This document shows positions 32,128 through 63,897 of a DNA stretch of 64,000 bases, piece by piece. The stretch is from Bacteroidales bacterium. GTDB lineage: Bacteria; Bacteroidota; Bacteroidia; Bacteroidales; Tenuifilaceae. Where the stretch lies: positions 304,545 through 368,544 of the forward strand of contig JABFRB010000019.1 of NCBI GenBank assembly GCA_013141385.1, in the 5' to 3' direction. Numbering within the stretch: position 1 is the first letter of the stretch; each line of letters starts with the position of its first letter. The notes below the pieces were generated by a model that saw only the letters and a list, made by a program, of their open reading frames with translations, ran no database searches and was not told the DNA's origin. A program made the position numbers and the translations under genes.

Positions 32128-32152
32128 TTACGAACTTAAATCCCCCAATACC

Positions 32153-33811
32153 ATGATGAATATCAATTACGTAAAAGAGTATATTGAAAAGAGCATTAAG
32201 GAAAACTGGGATCAGCCAGCATTTACCGACTATCAGGGTAAAACACTTTTATATCAGGATGTTGCTCAACAGATCCATAAGTTTCATAAAATCTTTGAGA
32301 TGTGGGGAATTAAAAAAGGGGATAAGATATCACTGATTGGAAGAAATAACTCTAATTGGGCGGTTATCTATCTTGCAACCATTTCGTATGGAGCGGTTAT
32401 TGTTCCCATTCTTGCCGATTTTGCAAATAATGATATTCACCATATTGTGAATCATTCTGATTCTGTAATGCTTTTTGTTGGTGATTCTGTATGGGATAAT
32501 CTCGAAGAGAATTCAATGCCACACGTTAAGGCTATTTTTTCCATTGATAGTTCATCTCTTTTAGTAAATAGAGTAAGTAAAGCAGAACATAAACATCAGG
32601 ATTTCCTTAAAACAATCGATGACGAAACCAAGAAGTTATCACCCAGTATGATTTCCTATCCTGAAATTCCTAATTCTAAACTTGGAGTTATCAGCTATAC
32701 TTCAGGAACAACGGGTTTTTCAAAAGGAGTTATGCTTTCACTTAATAGTTTGGTGGCAAATGTTGATTTTGGAAGAAAAAACATTGGCCTAAAACCAAAA
32801 GACAAACTTGTTTCATTTCTACCATTAGCACATGCTTATGGTTGTGCTTTCGAATTTTTAATGCCTTTTTCAATTGGATGCCATATAACCTTCTTAACCA
32901 AAATACCATCGCCTAAGATTATCCTTCAGGCTTTTCAGGAGATTAAACCTAAATTAGTATTAGCGGTACCCTTGATTATTGAAAAAATTTACAAGAAGCA
33001 AATTTTGCCCATTATAAATAAGCCTTCAATGAAGTTACTAATCAATGTACCGATACTTAACAAAGCAATTTACCAGAAAATAAACGCAAAACTTACAAAT
33101 GCGTTTGGAGGGAATTTTCTTGAAATTGTTATTGGGGGTGCTCCCATTAATAAGGAGGTTGAGGAGTTTTTACGCAAAATACGCTTTAGATATACCGTAG
33201 GCTATGGAATGACGGAGTGTGGCCCGTTAATATCTTACATCGGATGGGAGAAAATTAAAGCTGGTTCTTGTGGTGTTCTTTTACCAACCCTCCAAATAAA
33301 AATTGATTCGAAGAATCCGGAAAGCGAAGCAGGGGAGATTTTAATTAAAGGGGAAAACGTAATGGAAGGGTATTATAAAAACGAGGAGGCAACAAGGAAG
33401 ACTCTCGTTGATGGATGGCTTCATACTGGTGATTTGGGTATTATAGATAATGATGGTTTTATTTTTATTAAAGGAAGAAGTAAAAGTATGATACTGGGCC
33501 CAAGCGGTCAGAATATTTACCCGGAAGAACTTGAGGCTAGGTTTAATAATTTACCATTTGTTACAGAGTCTCTGGTTATTGAAAAAAATAATAGATTGAT
33601 TGCATTGGTATATCCCGATTTAGATGCTGCTGACGAAGCAAAATTGAAATCGGCTGATATTGAGAGAATAATGGAGCAGCACAGGGTTGATGTTAATAAA
33701 AATCTTCCACAGTATAGTCAAATCGTCAAGATCAAGCTATACCCAGAAGAATTTGAAAAAACTCCCAAGAAGAGTATAAAACGGTTCTTATATCAGATAT
33801 CAGAAAACTAG
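32153..33811 (+). CDS. AMP-dependent acyl-CoA synthetase-like enzyme, copy 2
   Basis: The 552-residue paralogue of the preceding gene is nearly identical in length and collinear in motifs: YTSGTTGFSKG, YGMTECGP, HTGDLGIIDNDG, KGRSKSMILGPSGQNIYPEELE and EKTPKKSIKRF. Its TTG motif is the more usual form of the P-loop than the TSG in copy 1. The shared opening KENWDQPAFTDYQGKTL and the same C-terminal text show an old tandem duplication. The copies differ at many positions, so they may have different acid substrates. A promoter box for the next gene lies just after its end. Confidence 0.87.
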   Translation: MMNINYVKEYIEKSIKENWDQPAFTDYQGKTLLYQDVAQQIHKFHKIFEMWGIKKGDKISLIGRNNSNWAVIYLATISYGAVIVPILADFANNDIHHIVNHSDSVMLFVGDSVWDNLEENSMPHVKAIFSIDSSSLLVNRVSKAEHKHQDFLKTIDDETKKLSPSMISYPEIPNSKLGVISYTSGTTGFSKGVMLSLNSLVANVDFGRKNIGLKPKDKLVSFLPLAHAYGCAFEFLMPFSIGCHITFLTKIPSPKIILQAFQEIKPKLVLAVPLIIEKIYKKQILPIINKPSMKLLINVPILNKAIYQKINAKLTNAFGGNFLEIVIGGAPINKEVEEFLRKIRFRYTVGYGMTECGPLISYIGWEKIKAGSCGVLLPTLQIKIDSKNPESEAGEILIKGENVMEGYYKNEEATRKTLVDGWLHTGDLGIIDNDGFIFIKGRSKSMILGPSGQNIYPEELEARFNNLPFVTESLVIEKNNRLIALVYPDLDAADEAKLKSADIERIMEQHRVDVNKNLPQYSQIVKIKLYPEEFEKTPKKSIKRFLYQISEN

Positions 33812-37534: not shown

Positions 37535-37936
37535 ATGCTATTCAAATCAACGTCAAAAAAATATTATCGGAAATTTACGTTATTACTATTCCTTATTTTG
37601 ATTGGAATATTGACAAAGTTTTACAAGGGATTCGGGTTTGAATTCATACAGAACCATTTAGGTGGAGTTATCTATGTTGTATTCTGGATACTGTTTTTTT
37701 CAATTATTTTCCCAAAGTTCTCAATCCTAAAGTTGAGTATTGGAGTCTTTTTAGTTACAAGCGCTATAGAGTTTACCCAATTAATTCATACACCATTCTT
37801 AGATAGCCTGCGCGAGCATTTCGTAATCCGAGCATTAATGGGTAGCACTTTTAATCCTTTCGATTTTATTTGGTATTTGGTGGGTGCATTATTAGGTTAT
37901 TTGACTATTAGTCTATTTTTTAAAAAAGCTGATTAG
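37535..37936 (+). CDS. DUF2809-type small membrane protein
   Basis: The 133 residues have four transmembrane segments. It resembles the DUF2809/VanZ-like group: KFYKGFGFEFIQNHLGGVIYVVFW, TSAIEFTQLI and GSTFNPFDFIWYLVGALLG match what I know of the family. Its function is unknown. It lies 49 bases after the kinase gene and 27 before the asparagine synthase gene, in the same direction, so it is likely part of the polysaccharide transcript. Confidence 0.7.
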   Translation: MLFKSTSKKYYRKFTLLLFLILIGILTKFYKGFGFEFIQNHLGGVIYVVFWILFFSIIFPKFSILKLSIGVFLVTSAIEFTQLIHTPFLDSLREHFVIRALMGSTFNPFDFIWYLVGALLGYLTISLFFKKAD

Positions 37937-37963: not shown

Positions 37964-39745
37964 ATGTGTGGAATCGCTGGTCGTTTAAGTTCTGAAATTT
38001 GTTTAGAAAGCGAGAAAATCGTTTTGGATATATGCAATAAAATGATCCATAGAGGACCAGACTTTGGTTCTGTTAAATCATTTGGTGCAATGGTTATGGG
38101 TCATAGACGTCTTTCGATTATAGATTTATCTCTTGAGGCAAATCAACCAATGACTCTTACTACCGGGCGTTATTCCATAGTTTTCAATGGGGAAATCTAT
38201 AACTATCAAGATATTCGAAACGAACTAATTAAAATCGGATATAAATTTCATACAAATTCCGATACCGAAGTTTTGTTATATTCATATCAACAGTGGGGAG
38301 AAAAATGCCTTACAAAGTTCAATGGAATGTTTGCATTTGCAATTTGGGATGAGATAGACCAATCACTGTTCTTGGCGAGAGATCGTTTTGGTAAAAAACC
38401 TCTTTTTTATTCAATTGGAAATAGCACTTTCACATTTGCATCAGAGACAATAGCTCTTTTAGAAGATCCGTCAATAAGCAACATATTTTCACACGAGGCA
38501 ATTAATTGTTATCTATCGCTGGGTTATATTTTAAACCCAATGACAATGTATTCTTCAATAAAACTTCTTGAACCAGGTTCTTTCATGGTTATTTCTAGAG
38601 ATTGTAAAATTGTTCGGAAAGGTTTTTATTGGAATTACGCAGGTAGCTTTAGAACCAAAATTAAAGCAAGCGAAGAAGAAATTGCAAAAAACATACTTGA
38701 ATTGCTGAATGAATCAGTAAAAAGACGCATGATTAGCGATGTTCCTGTGGGTGCGTTTCTTAGTGGTGGCATTGATTCCAGCAGTATTGTTAGTTTAATG
38801 AAAAATTTTCACAAAGGAGATTTGCATACGTTCAGTGTTGGTTTTAATCAAAAAAGTTATAACGAACTACCTGATGCAGATCGTGTCGGTAAATGGGCAG
38901 ATACAATTCATCACGGAATAATAGTAGATGCAAGACAAAACGATCAAATTCTTGAGGAATCAATTTGGGCAAGCGATCAATTGTTTTCTGACAACTCAAT
39001 CATTCCTATGATAGAGGTCTCTAAGTTGGCTGCAAAGCAAGTTACGGTTGTTCTCTCCGGTGATGGTGCTGATGAATTATTTGGCGGCTACATTACCTAC
39101 ACAGCAGATAATTATTATAAAAAAGCACAAATAGTACCTAAAGTAATAAGGCAATTACTTGGTTCGCAAAAATTTAGTATTAATCCTTTTTCAACAAAAA
39201 AAATAAATTTCGATTACAGGAGACAACAATTCTTTAGTGGAACATTATTCAACTATCAAAAAGCACATTACTCTTGGCGAAATATATTTAATGAAGAGGA
39301 ACGTATTAAAATCCTAGGAGAGTCATCAAGAGAATTGGTTTATGACACAGACCCTTTTAGAGTATTTAAGAAATATTATGATAATGTATTGGATTTAGAA
39401 TCGCTCGATCAACATTTATATGTAGATGCTATGACATGGTTGACTGATGATATTCTAGTTAAAGTTGATCGTTCAACAATGCACAGCAGTATAGAAGCGC
39501 GAGCACCATACCTCGATATTGACCTTGTTAACTATGCCGCGTCAATTCCTTCAGCAATAAAGATGAAAAATGGGATTAAGAAATACATACTAAAAAAAGC
39601 ATTAAAAAACACAGTACCAGAATTTGTTTTAAACAAGAAGAAAAATGGTTTCAACGCACCGGTGAATATGTGGATTGAAAACACAGAGAATAATGAGTTT
39701 AAGGTTTTTAATAAATATGTATATGAAAAGAGAATCTCAAAATAA
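37964..39745 (+). CDS. asnB: Asparagine synthase (glutamine-hydrolysing) homologue
   Basis: The 593 residues carry a full Ntn glutaminase domain with catalytic Cys2 (MCGIAG) and the conserved RGPD, NGEIYN and SDTEVLL motifs. The synthase domain has an intact PP-loop, LSGGIDSSS, near 265-273. Both catalytic halves therefore look functional. In polysaccharide loci such proteins often amidate uronic acids or other sugar carboxylates; the general function is Asp to Asn. The length is a little below that of E. coli AsnB paralogues in capsule clusters. The next gene overlaps it by 23 bases. Confidence 0.85.
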   Translation: MCGIAGRLSSEICLESEKIVLDICNKMIHRGPDFGSVKSFGAMVMGHRRLSIIDLSLEANQPMTLTTGRYSIVFNGEIYNYQDIRNELIKIGYKFHTNSDTEVLLYSYQQWGEKCLTKFNGMFAFAIWDEIDQSLFLARDRFGKKPLFYSIGNSTFTFASETIALLEDPSISNIFSHEAINCYLSLGYILNPMTMYSSIKLLEPGSFMVISRDCKIVRKGFYWNYAGSFRTKIKASEEEIAKNILELLNESVKRRMISDVPVGAFLSGGIDSSSIVSLMKNFHKGDLHTFSVGFNQKSYNELPDADRVGKWADTIHHGIIVDARQNDQILEESIWASDQLFSDNSIIPMIEVSKLAAKQVTVVLSGDGADELFGGYITYTADNYYKKAQIVPKVIRQLLGSQKFSINPFSTKKINFDYRRQQFFSGTLFNYQKAHYSWRNIFNEEERIKILGESSRELVYDTDPFRVFKKYYDNVLDLESLDQHLYVDAMTWLTDDILVKVDRSTMHSSIEARAPYLDIDLVNYAASIPSAIKMKNGIKKYILKKALKNTVPEFVLNKKKNGFNAPVNMWIENTENNEFKVFNKYVYEKRISK

Positions 39746-47098: not shown

Positions 47099-47710
47099 AT
47101 GATAACTATCATAAATTACGGTATGGGCAACCTTGGTTCCATTACTAATATGATAAAACGGGTTGGGTTTAGTAGCGAGATTACATCTGATTTATTAAAA
47201 ATCGAATCTGCCTCAAAAATCATCTTGCCAGGGGTTGGACATTTTGATAAAGCCATGCAGAATATTATTAGTCTTGGTTTATTGGATATTATTAAGAAGA
47301 AAGCATTAGTAGATAAAACACCTATTCTTGGTATTTGTCTTGGAATGCAACTAATGTGTAAAAATAGTGAAGAAGGTAATGAAAAAGGAATTGGTCTAAT
47401 AAATGCAGAGGTTAAAAAGTTTAAATTTTCCAATAATATCTTATATAAAGTACCACACATGGGTTGGAATTTAATCAATATTTCCAAAGAATCGCCACTG
47501 TTATTTGGAATGAATGAAACCCCTCGATTTTATTTTGTTCATTCATACTATGTAATGTGTAATGATATAAACGATGTTTTATCAACAACTTCATACGGAT
47601 TTGATTTTCATTCTTCGTTTGCACATAATAATATAATGGGTGTACAGTTTCATCCAGAAAAGAGCCATAAATTTGGAATGCAACTTTTAAAAAACTTCAT
47701 CAATCTTTAA
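47099..47710 (+). CDS. hisH: HisH-like glutamine amidotransferase subunit (sugar amidino pathway)
   Basis: Class I glutaminase of 203 residues. Motifs include IINYGMGNLGSI at the start, the nucleophile Cys in GICLGMQLM (about residue 79) and the His-Glu pair in GVQFHPEKS near 180-188, so the triad is intact. It would release ammonia for its HisF-like partner at 48634. The pair lies among sugar genes next to an N-acetyl sugar amidotransferase, with no other his gene present, so a role in histidine synthesis is unlikely. Paralogues of this kind serve in acetamidino-sugar synthesis (WbpG system). Confidence 0.9.
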   Translation: MITIINYGMGNLGSITNMIKRVGFSSEITSDLLKIESASKIILPGVGHFDKAMQNIISLGLLDIIKKKALVDKTPILGICLGMQLMCKNSEEGNEKGIGLINAEVKKFKFSNNILYKVPHMGWNLINISKESPLLFGMNETPRFYFVHSYYVMCNDINDVLSTTSYGFDFHSSFAHNNIMGVQFHPEKSHKFGMQLLKNFINL

Positions 47711-48633: not shown

Positions 48634-49392
48634 ATGTTAAGAAATCGCGTAATTCCTGTATTATTAATAAGCAATGGGGGTCTAGTTAAAACCACCAAGT
48701 TTAAGAAACCTGTTTATATTGGCGACCCCATTAATGCAGTTAAAATATTTAATGAAAAAGAGGTCGATGAGTTAATCCTTTTAGATATAACTGCAACTAA
48801 CGAAAAAAAGGAACCGAACTACAGTAAAATTAAAGAGATTGTTTCCGAAGCATTTATGCCAATAGGCTACGGAGGAGGGATAAATAAACTAGAACAGATT
48901 GAAAACCTATTTATGCTAGGCGTTGAAAAAGTGATTCTTAACACATCTGCACACACCAATCCTGATTTATTAAGACAGGCCTCGATAACATTCGGGAATC
49001 AAAGCATTGTTGTTGCCATTGATGTTAATAAAGACTTTTGGGGTAAACAATATATGTATACCAATGGTGGCAAGGTTAAGCAAAAAACAGAGTTGATTAC
49101 ATTTCTTAAAAAAACAGTTGCGATTGGTGCAGGGGAAATTTTAATAAATTCTATTGAAAATGATGGTATGATGAAAGGCTATGATCTTGGACTTATTAAA
49201 TATGTAAGTGAAAACGTATCGATCCCTGTTGTGGCATGTGGCGGAGCAGGAAATGTTCAAGACTTTTATAGTGCAATAAAGGCAGGTGCTTCTGCTGTTT
49301 CGGCTGGGAGTATGTTTGTTTTTCAGGGAGTGAATCGGGCAGTGCTGATAAGTTACCCGAAATATGAGGAATTAGAAAAGTTGTTAAAATGA
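48634..49392 (+). CDS. hisF: HisF-like cyclase-family subunit of the sugar amidino pathway
   Basis: The 252-residue TIM barrel resembles HisF. It keeps LLDITAT (Asp51 equivalent), the phosphate loop GYGGGI and VVAIDV (Asp130 equivalent). The first catalytic Asp of true HisF (position 11, CLDVKDG in Thermotoga) is replaced: here the text is PVLLISNGG, giving Leu. I infer it cannot carry out the imidazole-glycerol-phosphate cyclase step and instead passes ammonia from HisH to the next enzyme. The downstream amidotransferase gene overlaps it by four bases. Confidence 0.88.
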   Translation: MLRNRVIPVLLISNGGLVKTTKFKKPVYIGDPINAVKIFNEKEVDELILLDITATNEKKEPNYSKIKEIVSEAFMPIGYGGGINKLEQIENLFMLGVEKVILNTSAHTNPDLLRQASITFGNQSIVVAIDVNKDFWGKQYMYTNGGKVKQKTELITFLKKTVAIGAGEILINSIENDGMMKGYDLGLIKYVSENVSIPVVACGGAGNVQDFYSAIKAGASAVSAGSMFVFQGVNRAVLISYPKYEELEKLLK

Positions 49393-50510
49393 GAGAATAT
49401 AAGATATGTTCCAGATGTGTTATGGATACAAGTGATCCTGACATTGTTTTTGATGAGAATGGTTGTTGTAATCATTGTACCAACGTATTGCAACATCTAA
49501 AAGAAAACTATAGCGAGAAGACTAAAAATCAAGAAAAGCTTAATGAAATAATTAGAACAGTTAAGAAGGAGGGTTTTAACAGAAAATACGATTGTATAAT
49601 TGGATTAAGCGGAGGGGTAGATAGTTCTTATCTAGCATACAAACTTGTTAGGGATTATGGTATTCGGCCTCTGGCTGTGCATGTTGATAATGGATGGAAT
49701 TCAGAGTTGGCAGTATCTAACATACACAACTTGGTTAACAAGCTTAATATTGATCTTTATACCCATGTGATTAACTGGGAGGAATTTAAAGATTTGCAGA
49801 AATCATTTCTTTTTGCTTCTGTCGTTGATCTTGAGATGTTATCTGACCATGCGATTGTTGTCGCAATAAAAAAAATTGCAAAAAGGGAAAGAATAGAATA
49901 TTTTTTAATAGGCTCAAATTATCAAACGGAATCAATTTTACCAGTAAGTTGGTTTTATCCCAATAAAATTGATAGTGGGAATATTATTGATATTTACAGA
50001 AAATATGGTTCTGGTAGAAAAATAAAAACATTCCCATTTCTTTCATTCTGGAACTATTTTTTCTATGGTAAGGGGCATGGTAAATACCTAATGCCACTTT
50101 CTCTTATGGAGTATGATAAGGATGCGGCAAAAACAATCTTAATTAAAGAGATGGATTGGCAGGACTATGGGGCTAAGCACCACGAATCGTTTATTACAAA
50201 ATTCTACCAAACATATATATTGCCCAATAAATTTGGTATTGATAAGAGAAGAGCACACTTAGCTAGTTTGATTTGCGCTAATCAAATAACTCGCGAAAAA
50301 GCACTTGAGGAATTGAATAAACCAATTCTTGAAGATTCAAAAAAAGGAGAGGCAATTGAATATTTCTGCAAAAAGATGGAATTGTCAAGAGAGGAGTTTA
50401 ACAAAATAATGATGGAACCCAGAAGAGAGCATGATGAATTTAAAACCTATAAAAAAACCAAGGAATCTATTTGGAAGATTATCCGCATAATGAGGCACAG
50501 CCAAAAGTAG
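49389..50510 (+). CDS. N-acetyl sugar amidotransferase (WbpG/PseA-like)
   Basis: ATP-dependent PP-loop enzyme of 373 residues that turns an acetamido group of a sugar into an acetamidino group. The PP-loop is GLSGGVDSSY near 71-80. The N-terminal Cys motifs CSRCVMDTSDPDI and CCNHC look like a metal site and are a family mark. Ammonia would come from the HisH/HisF pair encoded just upstream; the start codon overlaps the hisF-like stop (ATGA). In Pseudomonas the equivalent genes serve O-antigen sugars and in Campylobacter pseudaminic acid derivatives. The exact sugar here is unknown. Confidence 0.92.
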   Translation: MREYKICSRCVMDTSDPDIVFDENGCCNHCTNVLQHLKENYSEKTKNQEKLNEIIRTVKKEGFNRKYDCIIGLSGGVDSSYLAYKLVRDYGIRPLAVHVDNGWNSELAVSNIHNLVNKLNIDLYTHVINWEEFKDLQKSFLFASVVDLEMLSDHAIVVAIKKIAKRERIEYFLIGSNYQTESILPVSWFYPNKIDSGNIIDIYRKYGSGRKIKTFPFLSFWNYFFYGKGHGKYLMPLSLMEYDKDAAKTILIKEMDWQDYGAKHHESFITKFYQTYILPNKFGIDKRRAHLASLICANQITREKALEELNKPILEDSKKGEAIEYFCKKMELSREEFNKIMMEPRREHDEFKTYKKTKESIWKIIRIMRHSQK

Positions 50511-54388: not shown

Positions 54389-55738
54389 ATGTCAGAAATA
54401 CCAATTGTAAATAGTTTTGTAAATATTGAAACACTTTTTGAAAGAGAACAAGAAAGAAGTATTTCTTTATTGTCGGAATTATATCTACAACCCAACTTAT
54501 TAAAAGAGAAGATTCGAAAAATTTCAAAGGGAGTTTTGGATAATCATAAAATCCTCGAAGGGAAAAAGATTTTACTGAAACCTAATTGGGTAACGCATAA
54601 TAGAAAAGAAAATGACGAAATCTGCTTAAGGACTCATAATAGCATATTGCTTTCGCTGGTTGAAATAATTCTTGAGTGTAAACCGTTAAAAATCACTATT
54701 GGGGATGCTCCAATACAAGGTTGTAATTGGGAAAAAATGATAAGTCAGGATTTTTATAAAAGCATAGAAAGATTAAGTATAACCCATTCTATTCCTATTA
54801 TTATTAAAGATTTCAGGAGAGTAACTTTTATTCCTCTCGAAAACAATCTTACAAAAGAAAGGAACGCAATAACTAACTATACAATATTTGATCTTGGAAA
54901 AGAAAGTTGCTTAGAACCAATTAGTTCAACGAAAAATATTTTTAGAGTAACCGATTACGATCCAGATAGACTATCAGAGTCTCATACTGTTGGAAAGCAC
55001 AAATATTGCATTACAAACGAATTGTTTGATGCAGATACAGTAATATCTTTACCAAAAATAAAAACGCATCAAAAAACAGGTATTACAGGAGCACTAAAAA
55101 ATTTGGTTGGATTAAACGGAGACAAAGACTTCTTACCTCATCACAGGGTTGGAGGTTCGGGAGTTGGAGGAGACTGCTATCCCGGGAAAAACATTTTAAG
55201 ACGTATTTCAGAATTCTTTTTAGATTATGCTAATAGGCATCAAGGAGAAAATAAGTATTGGGTAGGAGTTTATTTATCTAAAATTGCATGGAAGTTATCT
55301 TTGCCGAAGAATGTTCATCATTTAGCTGCTGGGTGGTTTGGAAATGATACTACATGGAGGATGGTAATGGACTTGAACAAAATAGCAATATTTGGGAAAA
55401 AAGATGGTACAATCTCCGGTTTGCCACAAAGAGAACTTTATTCACTTTGTGATGGTATAATTGGAGGACAGGGAGATGGACCACTTAATCCACAACCATT
55501 AGCAATGGGGGTAATTTGTTTTACAAACAACAGTTCAATGACGGATATTTGTATGGCAACTCTTATGGGTTTTGATATTCAGAAAATACCACTTCTTAAA
55601 ATAGCCGAACAAAATATAAAAAGGGAAACGATTTCACTTATTTTAAATGGACGATTAACAACAATAAAAGAAATTTCAAAATTATCAATACCAACCTTAC
55701 CTCCTCCAGGGTGGGTTGATTATCTTAGTAAACCATGA
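54389..55738 (+). CDS. DUF362 domain protein
   Basis: Starting at ATG 54389 gives about 449 residues; the earlier TTG at 54371 overlaps the previous gene. It matches DUF362 in the segments ILLKPNWVTHNR, ITIGDAPIQGCNW, DTVISLPKIKTHQKTGITGALKNLVGLNGD (split near 225-250) and CDGIIGGQGDGPLNP. Some DUF362 proteins carry a ferredoxin domain; none is present here. The function is unknown. Homologues do occur in polysaccharide loci, often near ATP-grasp genes, as here. Confidence 0.8.
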   Translation: MSEIPIVNSFVNIETLFEREQERSISLLSELYLQPNLLKEKIRKISKGVLDNHKILEGKKILLKPNWVTHNRKENDEICLRTHNSILLSLVEIILECKPLKITIGDAPIQGCNWEKMISQDFYKSIERLSITHSIPIIIKDFRRVTFIPLENNLTKERNAITNYTIFDLGKESCLEPISSTKNIFRVTDYDPDRLSESHTVGKHKYCITNELFDADTVISLPKIKTHQKTGITGALKNLVGLNGDKDFLPHHRVGGSGVGGDCYPGKNILRRISEFFLDYANRHQGENKYWVGVYLSKIAWKLSLPKNVHHLAAGWFGNDTTWRMVMDLNKIAIFGKKDGTISGLPQRELYSLCDGIIGGQGDGPLNPQPLAMGVICFTNNSSMTDICMATLMGFDIQKIPLLKIAEQNIKRETISLILNGRLTTIKEISKLSIPTLPPPGWVDYLSKP

Positions 55739-55821
55739 AATGGTTATTCTTAATCAAACTGTCTATTTCAGATGGTTTATTCTTTTTCACATAAGAATTT
55801 TAAAATTTACTAAACATTGAA

Positions 55822-56844
55822 ATGAAACCTATTGCAATTCATGATAATAAAATTGGTTTTACCAACAGGTGGATAGAGTACTGTTCAAGGAACTCTATTC
55901 CTTTTATTAAAGTGAACTGTTATGATACCAATATCATTGAAAAGTTAAAGGAATGCTCTGCCCTTATGTGGCATTGGAATTATGAGTATTATCAGGATTA
56001 TCTTTTTGCACGGCAATTTCTGCTTGCGGTAAAGGCAACAAATATTAAAGTCTTCCCTGAGTTTTGGACAACCTTTCTTTTTGATGACAAGTTGGGGCAA
56101 AAATATTTGTTTGAATCTCTTGATATACCAATGCCAAAAACATACGCATTTTACGAAAAAAGGGAGGCAACTAATTGGGCAAAAGAGATTCAGTATCCAA
56201 TTGTTTTTAAGTTAAGGTGTGGGGCTGGTTCACAGAATGTGCAATTGGTTAAATCCTTTACTAATGCAAAGAGACTTATAGATAAATCTTATTCAACAGG
56301 TTTTAAGAGTACGAATAAGCCTCAAGTTTTAAGAGATCGTTTAATTAAACTATTTAGGTATAAAAACAAAAGATCTTTTATTAATGTTATCAAAAGCACT
56401 TACCGACTCTTTATTCCAAAATTTGATGAAAAAATCATTCATCGGGAGATTGGTTATGTTATGTTTCAAGAATTTCTTCCGAATAATGATTTTGACACCC
56501 GAATAATTGTTCTCGGAAATCGATGTTTCGGAATTAGGCGATATAATCGCAAAAATGATTTTAGAGCGTCTGGTAGTGGCTTTTTAGATTATGATCCAGA
56601 ACAGATTGATACTAGGGCTATTAAGTTGTCTTTTGATATTGCAAGTAAATTAGAAACAAGATTACTTGCTCTAGATTTTCTTTTTGATAAACAGAATAAT
56701 CCTGTTGTTACGGAAATGAGTTACGGTTTTGCAGTTGAGGCATACGATGATTGCATGGGTTATTGGGATAATAAATTGATCTGGCATGAGGGTAAACAAA
56801 ACCTTCAATATCTTATGGTGGAAGATTTAATTACTGAAATTTAA
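55822..56844 (+). CDS. ATP-grasp domain protein (RimK-like ligase fold)
   Basis: The 340 residues show an N-terminal pre-ATP-grasp part and then the ATP-binding region: FDDKLGQKYLFESLDIPMPKT, VFKLRCGAGSQNVQLV (the flexible loop with Lys and Gly), VMFQEFLPNNDFDTRIIVLG and the metal site LLALDFLFDKQNNPVVTEMSYGF. ATP-grasp enzymes form an amide or thioester from a carboxylate through an acyl phosphate. In a glycan locus the likely role is to attach an amino acid or similar group. The next gene starts within its stop codon. Confidence 0.85.
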   Translation: MKPIAIHDNKIGFTNRWIEYCSRNSIPFIKVNCYDTNIIEKLKECSALMWHWNYEYYQDYLFARQFLLAVKATNIKVFPEFWTTFLFDDKLGQKYLFESLDIPMPKTYAFYEKREATNWAKEIQYPIVFKLRCGAGSQNVQLVKSFTNAKRLIDKSYSTGFKSTNKPQVLRDRLIKLFRYKNKRSFINVIKSTYRLFIPKFDEKIIHREIGYVMFQEFLPNNDFDTRIIVLGNRCFGIRRYNRKNDFRASGSGFLDYDPEQIDTRAIKLSFDIASKLETRLLALDFLFDKQNNPVVTEMSYGFAVEAYDDCMGYWDNKLIWHEGKQNLQYLMVEDLITEI

Positions 56845-57371
56845 TGACTAGTTTGTTTATGTTAACTCTTGTAAAAAAACACAACCATTTACAAATAGTG
56901 ATTTTTGATTTTATTTCAATTATCGTTATACTATTTGTCCCAACTGTTTCACATTTAACAGGATTTCCTTTTTATATATTTGAACCCATGAGATTGTTGG
57001 TAATTTCTTATTTGATATTTAGTAAAAATAAAAATTCTTATTTTCTAGCAATTTTGCTGCCTCTGTTTTCTTTTATTTTTGCAGGTCACCCCTCTCTCTT
57101 TAAATTACCATTAGTTACAATCGATTTGCTTTTGAATGTTGCTTTTTTAAATATCTTGTTAACAAAACGATTTAATATTTATTTTTCTATTATTCTGTCG
57201 GTTATTATAAGTAAAGTAGTGTATTATTCTTTAAAAGCAATTTTCATTTATGTTGGATTATTAGTAAATGGATTAGTAGAGACAAATATTATTTATCAGA
57301 TTGCTAATTTGTTAATTTTATTAGGGATATCGTTTATCTATGTAAAGAAGAGTAACCGTAATTATCTATAA
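56844..57371 (+). CDS. Small polytopic membrane protein, function unknown
   Basis: The 175 residues are almost all hydrophobic with five to six transmembrane helices. The start codon shares a base with the stop of the ATP-grasp gene (TAATG), a sign of translational coupling. The general shape recalls ECF-type substrate-binding or MreD-like small membrane proteins, but no motif supports either. I do not recognise it. Coupling to the ATP-grasp gene suggests a joint function. Confidence 0.6.
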   Translation: MTSLFMLTLVKKHNHLQIVIFDFISIIVILFVPTVSHLTGFPFYIFEPMRLLVISYLIFSKNKNSYFLAILLPLFSFIFAGHPSLFKLPLVTIDLLLNVAFLNILLTKRFNIYFSIILSVIISKVVYYSLKAIFIYVGLLVNGLVETNIIYQIANLLILLGISFIYVKKSNRNYL

Positions 57372-57470
57372 AAGATGTGTTTTACAGATAATTGGTTAAA
57401 TATATAGATGATATACCTCAAAAATTGACACGCTAAGACATGTTAAATTTTATAAGACGCAATAACGTAT

Positions 57471-58550
57471 ATTAAAACAAGAGTAATACATATTGTTTCA
57501 TCATTAACCAGAGGCGGTCGTGAGCGTCAGCTAGCAACAATCCATAAATACTCCGATAAGAGTAAGTTTTCAACCAAAATAATTTGCTTTAATCGTACCC
57601 AAAACTCTTATGTTGATGAGTATGGAATGTCTGAAGATGTTATATACCTTTCTTCGAAGAATTTTATTAAAAGGGTTAAGGAAATTAGGGGAATTGTTAA
57701 AGAGAATAAGGCGGATATAATTTGGTCATGGGGTGGAGTTGAAGCAACTTTTGGTGTTTTTTTATCCCTTACATCTAGCGTTAATCATATCAATGGAAGC
57801 ATTAGGCATGGTATTGTTCGTTTCAAACTGCATCAAATTTGGCGTCTGTTAGTATTGCATCTCTCCAAAAATATTGTAGCAAATTCTTTCGCTGGTTTAA
57901 AGGCAAATGGTATCTATCGGGGTGCGGTGCTTTATAACGGTATAGATGACAGTTTTTTTTGCGAACCCCAAACGCAATCTGCCCTTATTCGAGGAGTATT
58001 CGAAATTGAAGAAGATGTTGTTCTGCTGGCAAGTGTTGCAAATCTAGTTCCTTATAAGGATTATGACACAGTATTAAAAGCATTAAGCATTATCAAGTCA
58101 AAGGGAATACCGTTTCATTATATTGCTATTGGTGAAGGTCCTGAGAGGAGACATATTGAGGGATTAGTACAAATCCATAATTTATCTCAAAATGTTACTT
58201 TTCCTGGAAATCGATCGGATATAAAAGACATTCTTTACGCATCAGATATCTTTATTCATTCATCACGTGGGGAGGGTTGTAGTAATGCTATTCTGGAGGC
58301 GATGGCTGTTGGTTTGCCAATTATAGCATCCGATACTGGAGGGACAAGAGAGATAGTAGATAATAATGTCGGAAGGTTATTTGAATTTCAAAATGCGAAA
58401 CAGCTTGCTAGTCTGATTATGAATCAGATTTGCAATAACCTTGAAAGAGAACTATTGGCCGAAAACTCAAAGCATAAAGCGGCAAGTAATTTTTCGATTG
58501 AGAGGATGATGTCCAATTATTACAAGATTATTGAGGGAGTTATTAAATGA
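57471..58550 (+). CDS. GT4 glycosyltransferase with probable ATT start
   Basis: An ATG-based reading would start at 57627 and give 307 residues, lacking the N-terminal Rossmann part of the fold. The frame stays open upstream to a stop at 57453. The missing part is clearly encoded there: KTRVIHIVSSLTRGGRERQL at about 57474-57533, a textbook GT4 beginning. The only plausible initiator is ATT at 57471 (ATA at 57462 is another rare option). This gives 359 residues. Donor-site motifs are ASVANLVPYKDYDTVLKAL and HSSRGEGCSNAILEAMAVGLP. The stop overlaps the deacetylase start (ATGA). Confidence 0.85.
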   Translation: MKTRVIHIVSSLTRGGRERQLATIHKYSDKSKFSTKIICFNRTQNSYVDEYGMSEDVIYLSSKNFIKRVKEIRGIVKENKADIIWSWGGVEATFGVFLSLTSSVNHINGSIRHGIVRFKLHQIWRLLVLHLSKNIVANSFAGLKANGIYRGAVLYNGIDDSFFCEPQTQSALIRGVFEIEEDVVLLASVANLVPYKDYDTVLKALSIIKSKGIPFHYIAIGEGPERRHIEGLVQIHNLSQNVTFPGNRSDIKDILYASDIFIHSSRGEGCSNAILEAMAVGLPIIASDTGGTREIVDNNVGRLFEFQNAKQLASLIMNQICNNLERELLAENSKHKAASNFSIERMMSNYYKIIEGVIK

Positions 58551-59566
58551 GGAAACTCTATACTTTTATTCGCAAGATATTTCCAACCCAATGGCATGGC
58601 ATACTCACAGTTTTGCTCTATTACTTGAAAATTAAACCCACTGTAAATCGAAGGGTTAAATCACCATTTAGCAAAGGGATAATTGTTATATCTGCTGATT
58701 TTGAGATGGCTTGGGCTTTTAGGTATTCCAAAACCAAAGGAAGTATTGCTGAGCAATTGGGTTTAAGGGAGAGGGAGAATGTTCCTAAATTGTTAACTCT
58801 TTTCGAGAAATATCAAATTCCAATTACTTGGGCTACGGTTGGACATCTATTTCTCGATTCATGCAGCAAAGAGCAAGGTTCAAATGCACATCCTATGATG
58901 CCTCGTCATTCGTTTTTTGAAAACAGTAACTGGAGTTTTTGCTGTGGAGATTGGTATGAGCACGATCCTTGTACAAATTATATCGAATCACCAGCATGGT
59001 ATGCTCCAGATCTAATAGATCAAATCATGCAATCATCAGTTGGTCATGAAATAGGATGTCACACCTTTTCTCACATTGACTGTACGGATAAAAACTGCCC
59101 GCCCGATCTATTTGATGCGGAGTTAAAGGCGTGTATTGAGCATGCAAATAAAAAAGGTATTCAACTTAAAAGCATGGTTTTTCCTGGGGGAACGAATGGA
59201 AACTATTCAACATTAAAAGAACTTGGGTTTACCAGCTATCGAAAGGCAACAAATTACCATATAGACATTCCTTTTATTAATAATGATGGTTTGGTTCAAA
59301 TACCCAGCAGCTATAACCTTGACAGATCAAATCTGAATTGGTCGGCAGAAAGATATATTCGAATGGCCAATTCATTTGTTTCAAAAGCCTCAAAACACAA
59401 AATGGTTGCCCATTTATGGTTTCATCCTTCGATGGATAGTTGGTATATCGAAAATGTATTTCCTTTTGTACTTGAATATATAAAAAAGCATGTGGATGAA
59501 AACAGGGTTGTGGTTTTAACTATGGCTCAGCTTTCTGAAAAAATGAAGGGTCATGAGTTAGATTAA
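58547..59566 (+). CDS. Polysaccharide deacetylase family protein
   Basis: The 339 residues have the NodB-homology fold: the first Asp in VISADFEMAWAF near 46-57, the metal-binding HxxxH-type motif GCHTFSHIDC near 165-174, and a later FPGGTNGNYSTLKELGF. The Cys-rich middle (FCCGDWYEHDPC, TDKNCPPD) is unusual and might hold another metal site. The family removes acetyl groups from N-acetyl sugars or acts on related amides. There is no signal peptide in the classical form, so it may act in the cytoplasm on lipid- or nucleotide-linked sugars. Confidence 0.85.
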   Translation: MRKLYTFIRKIFPTQWHGILTVLLYYLKIKPTVNRRVKSPFSKGIIVISADFEMAWAFRYSKTKGSIAEQLGLRERENVPKLLTLFEKYQIPITWATVGHLFLDSCSKEQGSNAHPMMPRHSFFENSNWSFCCGDWYEHDPCTNYIESPAWYAPDLIDQIMQSSVGHEIGCHTFSHIDCTDKNCPPDLFDAELKACIEHANKKGIQLKSMVFPGGTNGNYSTLKELGFTSYRKATNYHIDIPFINNDGLVQIPSSYNLDRSNLNWSAERYIRMANSFVSKASKHKMVAHLWFHPSMDSWYIENVFPFVLEYIKKHVDENRVVVLTMAQLSEKMKGHELD

Positions 59567-59595
59567 ACAGGCGTTAATTTTCATCAATCAAAATT

Positions 59596-60900
59596 ATGTT
59601 TAAACTAAAGCTGATAGATTTAGCAAAAGGCTCTAACATATCTGATCAATACAAATTCTATTGTTCTACATTAAATTGGAGCAGAGATCAGGTTGTTAGC
59701 TATCAAAATAAAAGGCTAAAAAGTCTTATTAATCATTCCTGCTTAAATGTTCCATACTATAGGAATTGGATGGTTAATCATAATATTATTCCTCAAGAGA
59801 TAAATAGCACAGAAGAGTTAAAAAAACTTCCCATTTTAGACAGGGTAATAATACGCCAAAAAAATAAAGACCTAATAGCCCAAAATTATAAAACAAAAGA
59901 TCTGCACGGGGGGAGTTCAAGCGGGACAACTGGAATACCAATAAATTATTATCACGATACCCAATCGATAAGTGCTGGTGGGGCTGCAAATTATGCGCTA
60001 TGGTTAATGTCCGGTTGGAAACCAGGACAGAAAAATATTCATATCTGGGGAAATGCATCTTCAATTGAACGTTGGAATAGTATCGTTTCGAAGTTGAAAA
60101 CAAGACTAATGAATCAGCTAAATATTCCCTCTACTCACCTCAACGAAAATAACATTTCAGAAATTGCCGAAAAAATCATTCGATTTAAACCGAAATCAAT
60201 TGAAGGTTACCCAAGTGCAATATATACTTTAGCGAATCATTTCAAACAAAATAACCTTTCAATAAAAGGCTTAAAGCAAGTACTTACTACAGCAGAAAAC
60301 CTTGAAGATTATCAACGAGATATTATTGAAGCGACTTTTGCTCCTACAGGCGACTTTTATGGATCTGGAGAGGTAATGGGCATTGCTTCTCGCCCAATTG
60401 GTGATAATCGGTATTATATTTTTGAACCACACGTAATTGTTGAAGCGGTTGATTCGGGCTTGGAGGGTATGAAGGATATTCTGGTTACTGATTTAGATAA
60501 CTATGCAATGCCTATGATTAGATATAAAGTAGGAGATTTAATCGATAACATTTATATTCCAGAAACAAACTCAAAGTATCAGTTTTCATATTTCAAAAAA
60601 CTTATAGGTAGAAGTGCAGATATAATAACATTAACCAATGGTATGCGATTTCATCCGATTAACATTTTTGGGGGGACTCTATTTCGGGAGTTTCCTTTTA
60701 TTTCAAAGCATAGAGTGGTATGGGATGGAAAATTACTAAGAATTATTTTTGAGGTAAATGGAAGTGTTGATGATTCATTATTGAAACAAAAAATTGATGA
60801 ATTATTAAAGAGATATGATGTTTCTTATAGTATTGAGTACACAACAAAACTTTTACCATCATCTAACGGTAAATATAAATATGTTGAAATAATTAAATAG
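59596..60900 (+). CDS. PaaK/CapK-like adenylate-forming enzyme
   Basis: The 434-residue ANL-superfamily protein resembles phenylacetate-CoA ligase and the CapK proteins of capsule loci. The P-loop is GGSSSGTTGIPINYY near 101-115, followed by KSIEGYPSAIYTLA and the adenylate site DFYGSGEVMGIASRP near 253-267. The hinge text LVTDLDNYAMPMIRYKVGDL and IGRSADIITL are typical. It should activate a carboxylic acid as an acyl adenylate. CapK family members are found in many polysaccharide loci, but their substrates are mostly unknown. The AsnB-like gene follows after 10 bases. Confidence 0.87.
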   Translation: MFKLKLIDLAKGSNISDQYKFYCSTLNWSRDQVVSYQNKRLKSLINHSCLNVPYYRNWMVNHNIIPQEINSTEELKKLPILDRVIIRQKNKDLIAQNYKTKDLHGGSSSGTTGIPINYYHDTQSISAGGAANYALWLMSGWKPGQKNIHIWGNASSIERWNSIVSKLKTRLMNQLNIPSTHLNENNISEIAEKIIRFKPKSIEGYPSAIYTLANHFKQNNLSIKGLKQVLTTAENLEDYQRDIIEATFAPTGDFYGSGEVMGIASRPIGDNRYYIFEPHVIVEAVDSGLEGMKDILVTDLDNYAMPMIRYKVGDLIDNIYIPETNSKYQFSYFKKLIGRSADIITLTNGMRFHPINIFGGTLFREFPFISKHRVVWDGKLLRIIFEVNGSVDDSLLKQKIDELLKRYDVSYSIEYTTKLLPSSNGKYKYVEIIK

Positions 60901-60910
60901 TTCTCATTTT

Positions 60911-62776
60911 ATGGCCGGCATTTGTGGAATAATTCAAAAGAAAAGTAAGGTCGAAGAGGGTCGGCTCAATGCTGCTTTTGAACGAATGTTATCCAGGTTG
61001 CCTGCTAATTCAAACCAATCCTCGGATCGATTGGTACAGGACTCATTTTGGATTGGGAAAAGTTTTCCGATAACCCATGGGAATGAACCAGGGATTATTC
61101 ATAATCCAGAGTTATCAGTTTACGGGGTTATTGAGGGGTTGGTTTATGTAAACGACTCAGCAAAAACATTAGTTCAAGGCGAAAATAGAGAAGTTGAATT
61201 TTCTTCGCAAAATCAGTATATTCCATACCTATACGCTAAATACTCCATTGATTTTGTAAAGCATTTAACCGGGTGGTTTAATATTTTTCTTTTTGATCAA
61301 AAGCAAGGTCTTGCAATTCTGGTAAACGATAGAATAGGATTTCTTCCAATGTTTATCTATGATTCGGGCGAGGAATTCATTTTTGCTTCAAAAATTGAGA
61401 GCATCCTTGCATCTGGATTAATGGCTAGCATTGGTTTTGATGCTGTTTCGTGTGCCGAACAATTTCTATTTAACTATCAACTTTCGAATCATTCGCTTAT
61501 TAAGAATATTAATACGTTATCTGCAGCGACTGTCCATCAGTTAAAACCAGATGGTGAAAATAAAACTATTTACTGGAGCCCCAGAGAGTTGATTGTTGAG
61601 AAGCCGTTACCAAGGAAAGAGGGTTTTGAGATTATTAACCAAGCGCTTGAAGTCGCAATCAGCAAAGCGTTCGCTAATCACCAAGGCGATGTAGCGATTA
61701 CCCTTACAGGAGGTTGGGATGGTAGGCTTGTACTTTCGTACGCGTTAGGAAAATTTAGCGAACGAACTCATACGTTTTCCTATGGTACAACAAACTCTCC
61801 CGATATTGTAATCCCTCAAACCATTGCGCAATCAGAAGGTTTTAGGTATAAACCATTTCTGCTTGATCAAACTTACATCGGTAACTATTTCCCCGATTCA
61901 GCAAGTAGTACAATAATACTTTCAAATGGTGTTAGGGGCTATCGTCGAGCCCCTTATCTTTATGTAATGCCAAAATTATTGGGTATTTCGAACCTTATTC
62001 TTTCGGGAAATTTCGGAGACGAAATGCTTAAGTTCGCAGCGCTAAAACCCAGTGAGGTTCAATCAGAGGCATTGATTAACTATATTCAATCCGATTTTAA
62101 GGAAAGACCTCATTTCCCCCATCAACTATTTCAAGATCAGTTTTTGACTAATACGAATAGTTTCGATCTAATTGATGAGTGGAATTGCCGCTTACAGGGT
62201 TTAGAGGATGAGATGTCGTGCTATAACAATAGGAGTAAAAAGTATAATCACCTGAAATTGACTCGGATTGCTAACCGTTTTTTTGGTTACGAGGTGAATA
62301 GCTACAACGATTACACCAATAGCTTTTCCCCGTTTCTTGATTTCGATTTTATTACTGCGTTCTCTAAAACCATTTATTGCGGTATATATCATCCATTTAA
62401 CGAGAATAGGATAAAGGACAAAGAGTTGATTGCAATGCTTTACGCAAGCCTTGTTAAAAAAAATCATAAAACACTTGCTAAATATAATACCGATAGGGGT
62501 TATTCAATGGATGATGTAACAAATCCCTTTGGAAAGATTTTGGCTTACACTAAAAAACGTTTTTCAAAAGGTGCTCTTGAGAAGGAATCCGGTTTTTCAG
62601 AGCATACCTCAAAGCTATTCGATCAATTACACCAATCAGCCTATCCAGATTCTTTTGAAAAGTATCTTCAGTACCCTTATGATAAAGTTGAAAATGGGGT
62701 TAATAAGAACCTAATGAGCAGAGTTCAATCGCTAGAATTTTGGATTGGATATATAACAAATCAGTATTTAAAATAA
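60911..62776 (+). CDS. Asparagine synthase-like protein lacking the glutaminase Cys2
   Basis: The 621 residues have the two-domain AsnB layout, but key residues differ. The start reads MAGICGII where active enzymes have MCGICGII-like text, so the N-terminal nucleophile Cys2 is Ala. The PP-loop, normally SGGLDSS, is TGGWDGR (about 269-275). The rest aligns with the family, for example FLFDQKQGLAILVNDRIGF and NFGDEMLK. I infer that glutamine hydrolysis is lost and the acceptor chemistry may be changed, as in beta-lactam-synthetase-like relatives. It follows the PaaK-like gene and may use its activated product. Confidence 0.82.
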   Translation: MAGICGIIQKKSKVEEGRLNAAFERMLSRLPANSNQSSDRLVQDSFWIGKSFPITHGNEPGIIHNPELSVYGVIEGLVYVNDSAKTLVQGENREVEFSSQNQYIPYLYAKYSIDFVKHLTGWFNIFLFDQKQGLAILVNDRIGFLPMFIYDSGEEFIFASKIESILASGLMASIGFDAVSCAEQFLFNYQLSNHSLIKNINTLSAATVHQLKPDGENKTIYWSPRELIVEKPLPRKEGFEIINQALEVAISKAFANHQGDVAITLTGGWDGRLVLSYALGKFSERTHTFSYGTTNSPDIVIPQTIAQSEGFRYKPFLLDQTYIGNYFPDSASSTIILSNGVRGYRRAPYLYVMPKLLGISNLILSGNFGDEMLKFAALKPSEVQSEALINYIQSDFKERPHFPHQLFQDQFLTNTNSFDLIDEWNCRLQGLEDEMSCYNNRSKKYNHLKLTRIANRFFGYEVNSYNDYTNSFSPFLDFDFITAFSKTIYCGIYHPFNENRIKDKELIAMLYASLVKKNHKTLAKYNTDRGYSMDDVTNPFGKILAYTKKRFSKGALEKESGFSEHTSKLFDQLHQSAYPDSFEKYLQYPYDKVENGVNKNLMSRVQSLEFWIGYITNQYLK

Positions 62777-62779
62777 ATT

Positions 62780-62822
62780 CTTTGCGCTCTTTGAGCATCC
62801 GTTTTGCCCTTTGTGGTTAAAA
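62780..62822 (+). repeat. CTTTGCG-type dispersed repeat
   Basis: The segment CTTTGCGCTCTTTGAGC, then TTTTGCCCTTTGTGGTTAAA, is a fuller copy of the repeat seen as fragments at 3849-3863 and 13848-14057. It lies between the AsnB-like gene and the last GT4 gene, ending 14 bases before the ATG of the latter. Confidence 0.55.
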
Positions 62823-62835
62823 TCACACGAATAAA

Positions 62836-63897
62836 ATGGAAAAAAAGTTCACCGTATTTGTATTTGCCCGGCTAAAACCTAGCCAAATAAATTATAAAAT
62901 TATACCATTAAGCAATTCTCCTTTAGTTGAGCGGGTTTATGTTCTGCGAAAAACACCCCTTGAGGTGAATAACGAAAAGGTAGAGTGCATTGCACTACCT
63001 AAGATTCTTCGTATTCGATTGTTTTATTGGCTATTCACAGCGCTTTATGGTGCGTGGTTAATCAGAAAAAAAGGGGCAAATGTAATAGTCAGCTATAATA
63101 TATTTCCACATGGTTTTAATGGCTACGTTGCATCATTAATAACAGGTAAACCCTTTATTTTTGCTGAGATTAATGAAGAAACTCTGAATTATTTTAGTAA
63201 TTCATTATTTAATTTCTTTATAAAGAAAATATTAAACAGAGCAACTTATATAACAGTCCCTGGCGCAAATACAGCGAAAAGATGGAGAATTAATGGGTAT
63301 AATAATCTTGTACCGCTACATAGCACAATAAATACAGAAGTATTTCTACCATTTGCTCAAGAAAAGTGGTTTGATTTTCTTTTTATTGGAGAGTTTGATG
63401 ATAACAAAAGACCAAACCTAATACTTGAAGCATTCACCGAAATTCGAAAAATGGGTATTGATGCTTCTTTATGTTTTATAGGCTTTGGTCAATTGGAAAA
63501 GAATCTTAAAGAGTTAATCAAGAAGAATAATTTAACCCAATACGTGTCCGTAATAAAAACGAACAATGTGTTGGAATACCTGTTGAATTCTAAAGTGTTA
63601 GTAATGTCTTCATTATCCGAAGGCATCCCTTGTGCAATGCTCGAATCAATGGCCTGTGAGCTTATTGTTGTTGTTCCTCCTGTTGGTGATATTGCCGATG
63701 TGGTTGAACATGGAGTTAACGGATTTCTGCACAATAACACCAAGGAGGATATAGTAAAATGGATGGTAGAAGCCTATAAAAATTATGACTCGCTAGGACT
63801 TATGAGAGAAAAAGCAAGGGACACAATTATCAAAGGACATTCCTATCAATTTGCAGTTGCCGGATGGAATAAATTGTTAATGCGAATTAAGGGTTGA
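62836..63897 (+). CDS. GT4 family glycosyltransferase
   Basis: The 353-residue GT-B enzyme has a shorter N-terminal domain (VFVFARLKPSQINYKIIPL) and clear donor-site text: FLFIGEFDDNKRPNLILEAF near 180-199, and MSSLSEGIPCAMLESMACELIVV near 257-279 with the two acidic residues. The sugar is unknown. It is the last gene in view. The remaining 103 bases (63898-64000) are AT-rich and show no gene or clear terminator, so the locus may go on. Confidence 0.9.
   Translation: MEKKFTVFVFARLKPSQINYKIIPLSNSPLVERVYVLRKTPLEVNNEKVECIALPKILRIRLFYWLFTALYGAWLIRKKGANVIVSYNIFPHGFNGYVASLITGKPFIFAEINEETLNYFSNSLFNFFIKKILNRATYITVPGANTAKRWRINGYNNLVPLHSTINTEVFLPFAQEKWFDFLFIGEFDDNKRPNLILEAFTEIRKMGIDASLCFIGFGQLEKNLKELIKKNNLTQYVSVIKTNNVLEYLLNSKVLVMSSLSEGIPCAMLESMACELIVVVPPVGDIADVVEHGVNGFLHNNTKEDIVKWMVEAYKNYDSLGLMREKARDTIIKGHSYQFAVAGWNKLLMRIKG

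Follow-up and report, generated by a model that had tools for sequence, protein, structure and literature searches.

A DUF362 protein and a RimK-like ATP-grasp ligase form a recurrent gene pair at the end of a Bacteroidales polysaccharide cluster, with a putative role in glycan acylation

In a Bacteroidales bacterium of the Tenuifilaceae (assembly GCA_013141385.1), seven genes at positions 54389-62776 of the 64,000-nucleotide stretch analyzed here (the window; bases 304545-368544 of contig C19) encode a DUF362 protein, an ATP-grasp enzyme, a small membrane protein, a GT4 glycosyltransferase, a polysaccharide deacetylase, a PaaK/CapK-like enzyme and an AsnB-like protein. An earlier note had read them as one glycan-tailoring module. 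Judged by gene neighborhoods in other genomes, the conserved core is two or three genes, not the seven-gene combination. Its recurrent pair consists of the DUF362 gene (54389..55738, + strand, 449 amino acids [aa]; PF04015, 78 bits against a cut-off of 24) and the gene of a predicted RimK-like ATP-grasp ligase (55822..56844, + strand, 340 aa; PF08443, 29.8 bits against a cut-off of 21). We propose, at a probability of about 0.4, that this pair supplies a carboxylic acid, which is probably of the 2-hydroxy type, and couples it to a sugar amine exposed by a predicted deacetylase.

The window DUF362 protein has at least 2,275 relatives at an E value of 0.001 or below. A scan of one genome per species (84,980 species) returned 29 DUF362 loci, spread over Bacteroidota, Ignavibacteria, deltaproteobacterial, Aminicenantes and Cloacimonadota genomes. 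Each locus takes in at most 10 kb on either side of DUF362; several are shortened by contig ends, and one (L018) stops at the DUF362 gene with nothing downstream. Families were counted at bit thresholds of our own choosing (PaaK-like and window deacetylase, 60; the deacetylase-like family c1 and the AsnB profile, 150; ATP-grasp and DUF362, 100; membrane protein, 50), under which a 149-aa PaaK-like fragment in L022 (22 bits) goes uncounted. In 26 of the 29 loci, one of the three genes that follow DUF362 encodes a RimK-type ATP-grasp enzyme, and in 23 of the 28 with a downstream open reading frame (ORF) it is the very next gene; the membrane protein occurs in eight loci, directly before DUF362 in all eight, and other regular gene pairs reach 7/10 or 12/25. 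Family c1 is present in 18 loci, the PaaK-like family in one, and the window deacetylase family and the AsnB subfamily in none. A single conserved seven-gene pathway was rejected on these last three counts: half of the set is scattered in homologous loci, which the earlier note had itself named as evidence against one module.

Some loci depart from this arrangement. A TupA-like ATP-grasp gene adjoins DUF362 in L026. L021 has no ATP-grasp gene, and an AsnB-like protein without N-terminal Cys (LTGGIDSR) is encoded two genes upstream of DUF362; a DDE transposase gene sits between these two genes (L021:6603-11356). DUF362 matches at 1e-30 occur in 9 of 277 Bacteroidota genomes, two of them, the source genome (G000) and G091 (which is one genome with G295, sharing the same 616,885-base contig), belonging to the close subfamily. 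Among seven distant loci (L040-L046; 29-35% identity), DUF362 lies directly beside a PaaK-like gene in three (L040, L044 and L045). Seven DUF362 loci lack the usual ATP-grasp, and in five of them a different carboxylate-activating enzyme is encoded next to DUF362 or close by. Since such an enzyme stands there even when the ATP-grasp is swapped for an unrelated type, DUF362 mostly keeps a carboxylate-activating partner, and this is our strongest functional clue. No description of the DUF362/ATP-grasp pair was found in the open-access literature, a search that reached few subscription papers and no bioRxiv preprints.

What DUF362 might contribute is suggested by its structure model, which has the fold of LarA, a 2-hydroxy-acid racemase. 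In the accessible portions of two papers, the LarA superfamily is described as nickel-pincer (NPN-dependent) 2-hydroxy-acid racemases (PMC11770544, PMC12611868), and DUF362 and DUF2088 (LarA) are grouped in one Pfam clan, CL0471 (PMC11770544). Besides the predicted fold, the window protein has equivalents of the catalytic His174 and the cofactor Lys184 of LarA: H227 and K237 align with them at a spacing of 10 in both proteins, in a statistically weak alignment. Both residues are invariant in 36 of 36 DUF362 sequences, namely the 28 of alignment A1 (the window protein and 27 homologs of 56-77% identity, chosen from 120 of the at least 2,275) and eight from the loci, the eighth of which (L039) duplicates the L020 protein and is not distant. 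A 684-aa homolog with an internal repeat of ~240 residues (P0003), probably an assembly artifact, was excluded from A1. By eye only, A107 occupies the position of the first catalytic histidine of LarA, H108, and no Arg stands at that of the phosphate arginine R75. In the weak alignment H252 lies opposite the nickel ligand H200, and it is His in four of seven distant sequences; the invariant residue is H251. Lar_N (PF09861) is not matched, PF04015 being the sole Pfam family at E values up to 0.01. A global hhalign alignment with LarA was unsuccessful, the N-terminal part stayed unaligned by hhalign, and a sequence search of the PDB with DUF362 gave a single match (E 0.87). Open-access papers that name the family, as far as these were accessible, yielded no assigned function.

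The ATP-grasp partner passes the Pfam RimK cut-off, stays under that of NCBIfam rimK_fam (41.5 against 143.4 bits), and its family profile matches RimK and LysX structures. RimK and LysX ligate amino acids. At 1e-15 the family occurs in 20 of the 277 Bacteroidota genomes, the source genome included. We examined 13 ATP-grasp contexts without a close DUF362 gene, leaving out the weakly matching G062, G066 and G184 and a weak second match in G211. Family c1 is present in 8 of these 13 and the window deacetylase family in one (L102), where it adjoins the ATP-grasp gene; in L094, L097 and L099 the gene immediately before the ATP-grasp gene encodes a standard, Cys2-containing AsnB. No ATP-grasp, DUF362 or c1 gene was found in contrast sets of nine PaaK-like and six deacetylase contexts, which are of small size and were collected with different queries; with L102 added, ATP-grasp is present in one of seven other deacetylase contexts. 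One deacetylase gene (L145) came from another search and was missed among the picked ORFs. The small membrane protein (56844..57371, + strand, 175 aa), placed in the window after the ATP-grasp gene, unlike in the other loci, is modeled with the fold of an ECF-transporter S-component. EcfT (PF02361) is encoded on another contig of the source genome and was not matched in the other eight of the nine genomes with the membrane protein, whose completeness is unstated.

Two distinct families could supply the deacetylation step. The window enzyme (58547..59566, + strand, 339 aa) is a predicted CE4-type polysaccharide deacetylase (PF01522, 32.6 bits against a cut-off of 23.1) whose best PDB match, a weak one, is the peptidoglycan deacetylase 3qbu (0.0079). 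Genome-wide, its family occurs in 1 of 29 other distinct DUF362 genomes (G293). The other family, c1 (375 aa), lies one or two genes upstream of DUF362 in 16 of its 18 DUF362 loci. The c1 member tested first had no Pfam family at 0.01; at E values up to 1, 8 of 16 members match Glyco_hydro_57 (best 0.00016) and 6 match DUF2334 (best 0.00082). These two families and Polysacc_deac_1 make up one superfamily. The invariant c1 motifs SDDWG, HxREH and HR look, to our eye, CE4-like. We class c1 as deacetylase-like, not as a deacetylase. A search of the PDB with the c1 profile returned repeat proteins only, probably spuriously, and was set aside.

The AsnB-like protein (60911..62776, + strand, 621 aa; GATase_7, 51 bits against a cut-off of 25) begins MAGICG and carries the ATP loop LTGGWDGR. 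The earlier note had called it crippled; the nucleophile Cys2 is indeed replaced by Ala, and the enzyme is nonetheless not a decayed copy, since both features are conserved throughout its subfamily. This comprises at least about 71 database proteins among 87 matches, with the boundary read from a sharp drop in score. In an alignment of 35 members (A2), position 2 is Ala in 32 and Ser in one, the N terminus is missing in two, and most sequences start with MAGI; the pyrophosphatase loop L-x-G-G-x-D-x-R is kept in all 35, with L265, G267, G268, D270 and R272 invariant. Lacking the glutaminase Cys and keeping the ATP loop, the enzyme would not use glutamine ammonia and may adenylate a carboxylate. 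CarA, a carbapenam synthetase, likewise lacks the glutaminase cysteine and forms an amide without glutamine. It is related in sequence to the window protein (1q15, 5.9e-08), whose subfamily is separate, with L-x-G-G-x-D-x-R instead of SGGLDSS. Matches to the subfamily were found in 19 of the 277 Bacteroidota genomes and, apart from the window gene, score 107-125 bits, the level of ordinary AsnB. Matches above 200 bits occur in 2 of 29 other distinct DUF362 genomes. One of these, G293, carries the AsnB-like relative and a deacetylase relative (47% identity) ~13 kb apart; its DUF362 gene occupies a different contig of 3.6 kb, which does not allow a judgment on linkage. In the other, G299, locus L158 (11592-17537) has consecutive genes for a Polysacc_deac_1 protein (2.5e-21), a 558-aa AsnB-like relative that lacks an N-terminal Cys (238 bits against the AsnB profile) and an ATP-grasp protein that scores 69 bits with the family profile and whose Pfam ATP-grasp matches stay below cut-off. 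Next in the run come an ORF with a weak likeness to GT4 (31 bits) and a GNAT/FemAB-like gene. This run is a possible further acylation locus, and the same genome carries a DUF362 pair elsewhere (L024). The predicted PaaK/CapK-like adenylate-forming enzyme (59596..60900, + strand, 434 aa) has no Pfam match and falls under every NCBIfam cut-off (NF045666, 79.3 bits against 300), yet it matches the phenylacetate-CoA ligase 4r1l at 9.1e-13 over residues 28-368.

The pathway that we propose would run as follows. The predicted deacetylase would expose a sugar amine; DUF362, through its predicted LarA fold, would make, supply or epimerize the acid; and the ATP-grasp ligase would form the acyl-phosphate and then the amide on the sugar amine. 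The PaaK-like and cysteine-less AsnB-like enzymes might attach one more acyl or amide group, peculiar to this strain, the latter acting as an ATP-dependent amide synthetase that uses the amine directly rather than glutamine, or they could be unrelated to the pathway. The notion that a deacetylase frees an amine for a ligase to acylate draws indirect support from the occurrence of c1 in DUF362 loci and in ATP-grasp contexts without DUF362, and from the L158 run.

Several observations weigh against this proposal. Polysaccharide loci often contain deacetylases and ligases, whose co-occurrence could therefore be loose. Within the stretches covered, c1 was not seen in 11 of the 29 DUF362 loci, and it matches the CE4 model Polysacc_deac_1 weakly, in 2 of 16 members (best 0.014). 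Among the distant loci, L041 and L042 have c1 directly upstream of DUF362 and the ATP-grasp gene as far as five ORFs downstream; the ORF next to DUF362 in L046 resembles ATP-grasp weakly, scoring 32 bits with the window protein and matching PF13535 (E 0.0077) short of the cut-off; and in L043 no ligase adjoins DUF362, a weak ATP-grasp-like ORF (38 bits) being ~7 kb off. The pairwise hhalign comparison of DUF362 with LarA is weak (E 0.0011, 20.9% probability over 57 columns with eight LarA-type sequences); four such sequences gave E 0.014, and the first sets compared gave 0.09. A common fold, moreover, does not mean a common reaction. LarC is required for the nickel cofactor of LarA. LarC (TIGR00299) was not found in the source genome (99% complete) or in G091 (100%), both of which show LarE (TIGR00268) below its cut-off only, and LarA has no match in the source genome; a LarA-type nickel-cofactor reaction is thus unlikely as such. 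LarC was found in 10 of 30 DUF362 genomes, completeness being stated for the source genome and G091 alone. We accordingly rejected DUF362 as an NPN enzyme of known type, while its site residues allow for a cofactor imported or made in another way.

The nearest known chemistry, by analogy, is the Wbp/Vim linking-sugar pathway of Porphyromonas gingivalis and Tannerella forsythia (PMC7468200). As set out in the accessible text of that paper, it shares with our proposal the Bacteroidota glycan setting, an AsnB-type enzyme and two proposed activities, in which a putative CE4 deacetylase would free the amine of a sugar and another enzyme would add a carboxylic (amino) acid to it; the window locus also has a CE4 deacetylase, a likeness at the level of the family. 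In Wbp/Vim the acyl group is placed by the N-acetyltransferase-like VimA (PMC7468200), whereas the candidates in the window are the ATP-grasp, PaaK-like and cysteine-less AsnB enzymes. Among the eight genes at 54389-63897, to which the search was limited, no VimA-type acyltransferase was matched. The main text of PMC7468200 does not contain the term ATP-grasp, nor is DUF362 named in the accessible paper. In XrtA/PEP-CTERM exopolysaccharide clusters, too, glycosyltransferases accompany an AsnB-type amidotransferase and a polysaccharide deacetylase (PMC7468200, as far as accessible, and NCBIfam names). Membership in that system was rejected on model scores, the window proteins falling far under the XrtA models (amidotransferase, 44.4 against 816.9 bits; deacetylase, 18.3 against 276.2).

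Other explanations share parts of this evidence. It is quite possible that the cluster is a mosaic in which the last four genes (deacetylase, PaaK-like, AsnB-like and a second GT4) adjoin the DUF362/ATP-grasp pair without being related to it, and that no joint pathway exists. The near-absence of three of their families from DUF362 loci points this way, as do the lack of DUF362 and ATP-grasp from all nine other PaaK-like contexts, the rarity of ATP-grasp in other deacetylase contexts, and the closest relative, L002 (DUF362 76% identical), which has ATP-grasp, GT4 and an acetamidino set downstream and none of the deacetylase, PaaK-like and AsnB-like genes. A purely mosaic origin fits less well with the PaaK-like genes beside distant DUF362 genes, with the L102 and L158 arrangements, with G293, which holds relatives of both the deacetylase and the AsnB subfamily, and with the close, co-directional spacing of the window genes. 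We consider it rather doubtful that the target of the ligases is the carboxyl group of the sugar itself, a uronic acid being activated by the ATP-grasp, AsnB-like and PaaK-like enzymes and coupled to an amino acid or other amine, with deacetylation as a separate step. The complete Cys-containing AsnB in the same cluster (37964-39745) and the standard AsnB genes directly before ATP-grasp in three contexts favor such a route, and P. gingivalis forms a uronamide with the AsnB-like WbpS, according to the accessible text of PMC7468200; this route would leave unexplained both the association of c1 with ATP-grasp and the predicted LarA fold of DUF362.

It is improbable, in our estimate, that an amino acid is attached instead of a hydroxy acid, as in the Wbp/Vim linking sugar, with DUF362 serving some other purpose, for example modification of the sugar or the amino acid. 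This would suit an ATP-grasp family whose relatives of solved structure are amino-acid ligases, and also the GNAT/FemAB-like gene two genes after ATP-grasp in L158, and Wbp/Vim, in the part of PMC7468200 available, puts serine or glycine on the amine proposed to be freed by VimE. Against it, no GNAT/FemAB match was found in Pfam for the eight genes at 54389-63897 or in NCBIfam for the first seven, and a LarA fold suggests hydroxy acids over amino acids. Beyond the transfer of a 2-hydroxy acid proposed here, a broader conjecture, which we hold as a long shot, is that glycan-locus DUF362 proteins form a separate arm of the LarA superfamily without the nickel-pincer cofactor. Their His-Lys site, with another metal or cofactor, would make or epimerize an acid that the partner ligase (ATP-grasp, PaaK-like or cysteine-less AsnB) would fix to a surface sugar, and the S-component-like membrane protein would be reused as a helper without an ECF motor.

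The seven genes form the tail of a long co-directional cluster and have no natural boundary. All are present at the coordinates of the earlier note, on the + strand, and their named families are supported by profile or structure matches. Of the several overlaps it described, two of six junctions bear this out (ATP-grasp/membrane protein, 1 base; GT4/deacetylase, 4 bases), the rest being gaps of 83, 99, 29 and 10 bases. The 99-base gap is measured from an ATT at 57471, the probable start of the GT4 gene (57471..58550, + strand, 359 aa; PF00534 [Glycos_transf_1], 114.8 bits). The first ATG of its frame, at 57627, leaves the ORF short at the N terminus; the frame is open back to 57471, and the stretch gained resembles, we presume, a GT4 N terminus. 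Alternatively, the real start may have been lost through a sequence error. Beyond the noted range, the second GT4 gene (62836..63897, + strand, 353 aa; PF00534, 95.5 bits) is the last before the contig end, which coincides with the end of the window. The source genome comprises 5.5 Mb in 53 contigs and is 98.96% complete.

The whole polysaccharide cluster covers ~29 kb (35059-63897) up to the contig end, with every picked ORF of at least 80 aa co-directional. It starts with a GNVR/AAA_31 protein (from 35059), which we take to be Wzc-like, preceded by a polysaccharide export protein (from 33824), and includes a Wzx-type flippase (from 42725), a DegT aminotransferase (from 44296), a PglD-like acetyltransferase (from 45420) and several glycosyltransferases. 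The second AsnB of this cluster, at 37964-39745, has the nucleophile Cys (MCGIAG) and is probably a uronamide- or amide-forming enzyme. A 133-aa DUF2809 protein (37535-37936) is encoded between it and the GNVR/AAA_31 protein, and tandem AMP-binding genes of the acyl-CoA ligase type (553 and 552 aa, 30466-33811) immediately precede the export gene. An acetamidino-forming set on the + strand comprises HisH (47099-47710; TIGR01855, 241.2 bits), HisF2/AglZ (48634-49392; NF038364, 355.3 bits against a cut-off of 310) and WbuX (49389-50510; TIGR03573, 283.8 bits against 203.2); WbuX and HisF homologs are found near DUF362 in 3 of the 29 loci (L002, L017 and L022).

To conclude, DUF362 is a widespread family, and its frequent pairing with a carboxylate ligase, together with the predicted LarA fold, narrows it to a short list of testable reactions. 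The finding raises the question of how a LarA-type site can work in a cell where neither LarC nor LarE is in evidence. If the proposal is true, the pair would provide a second route, beside Wbp/Vim, for placing acids onto sugar amines in Bacteroidota and other phyla.

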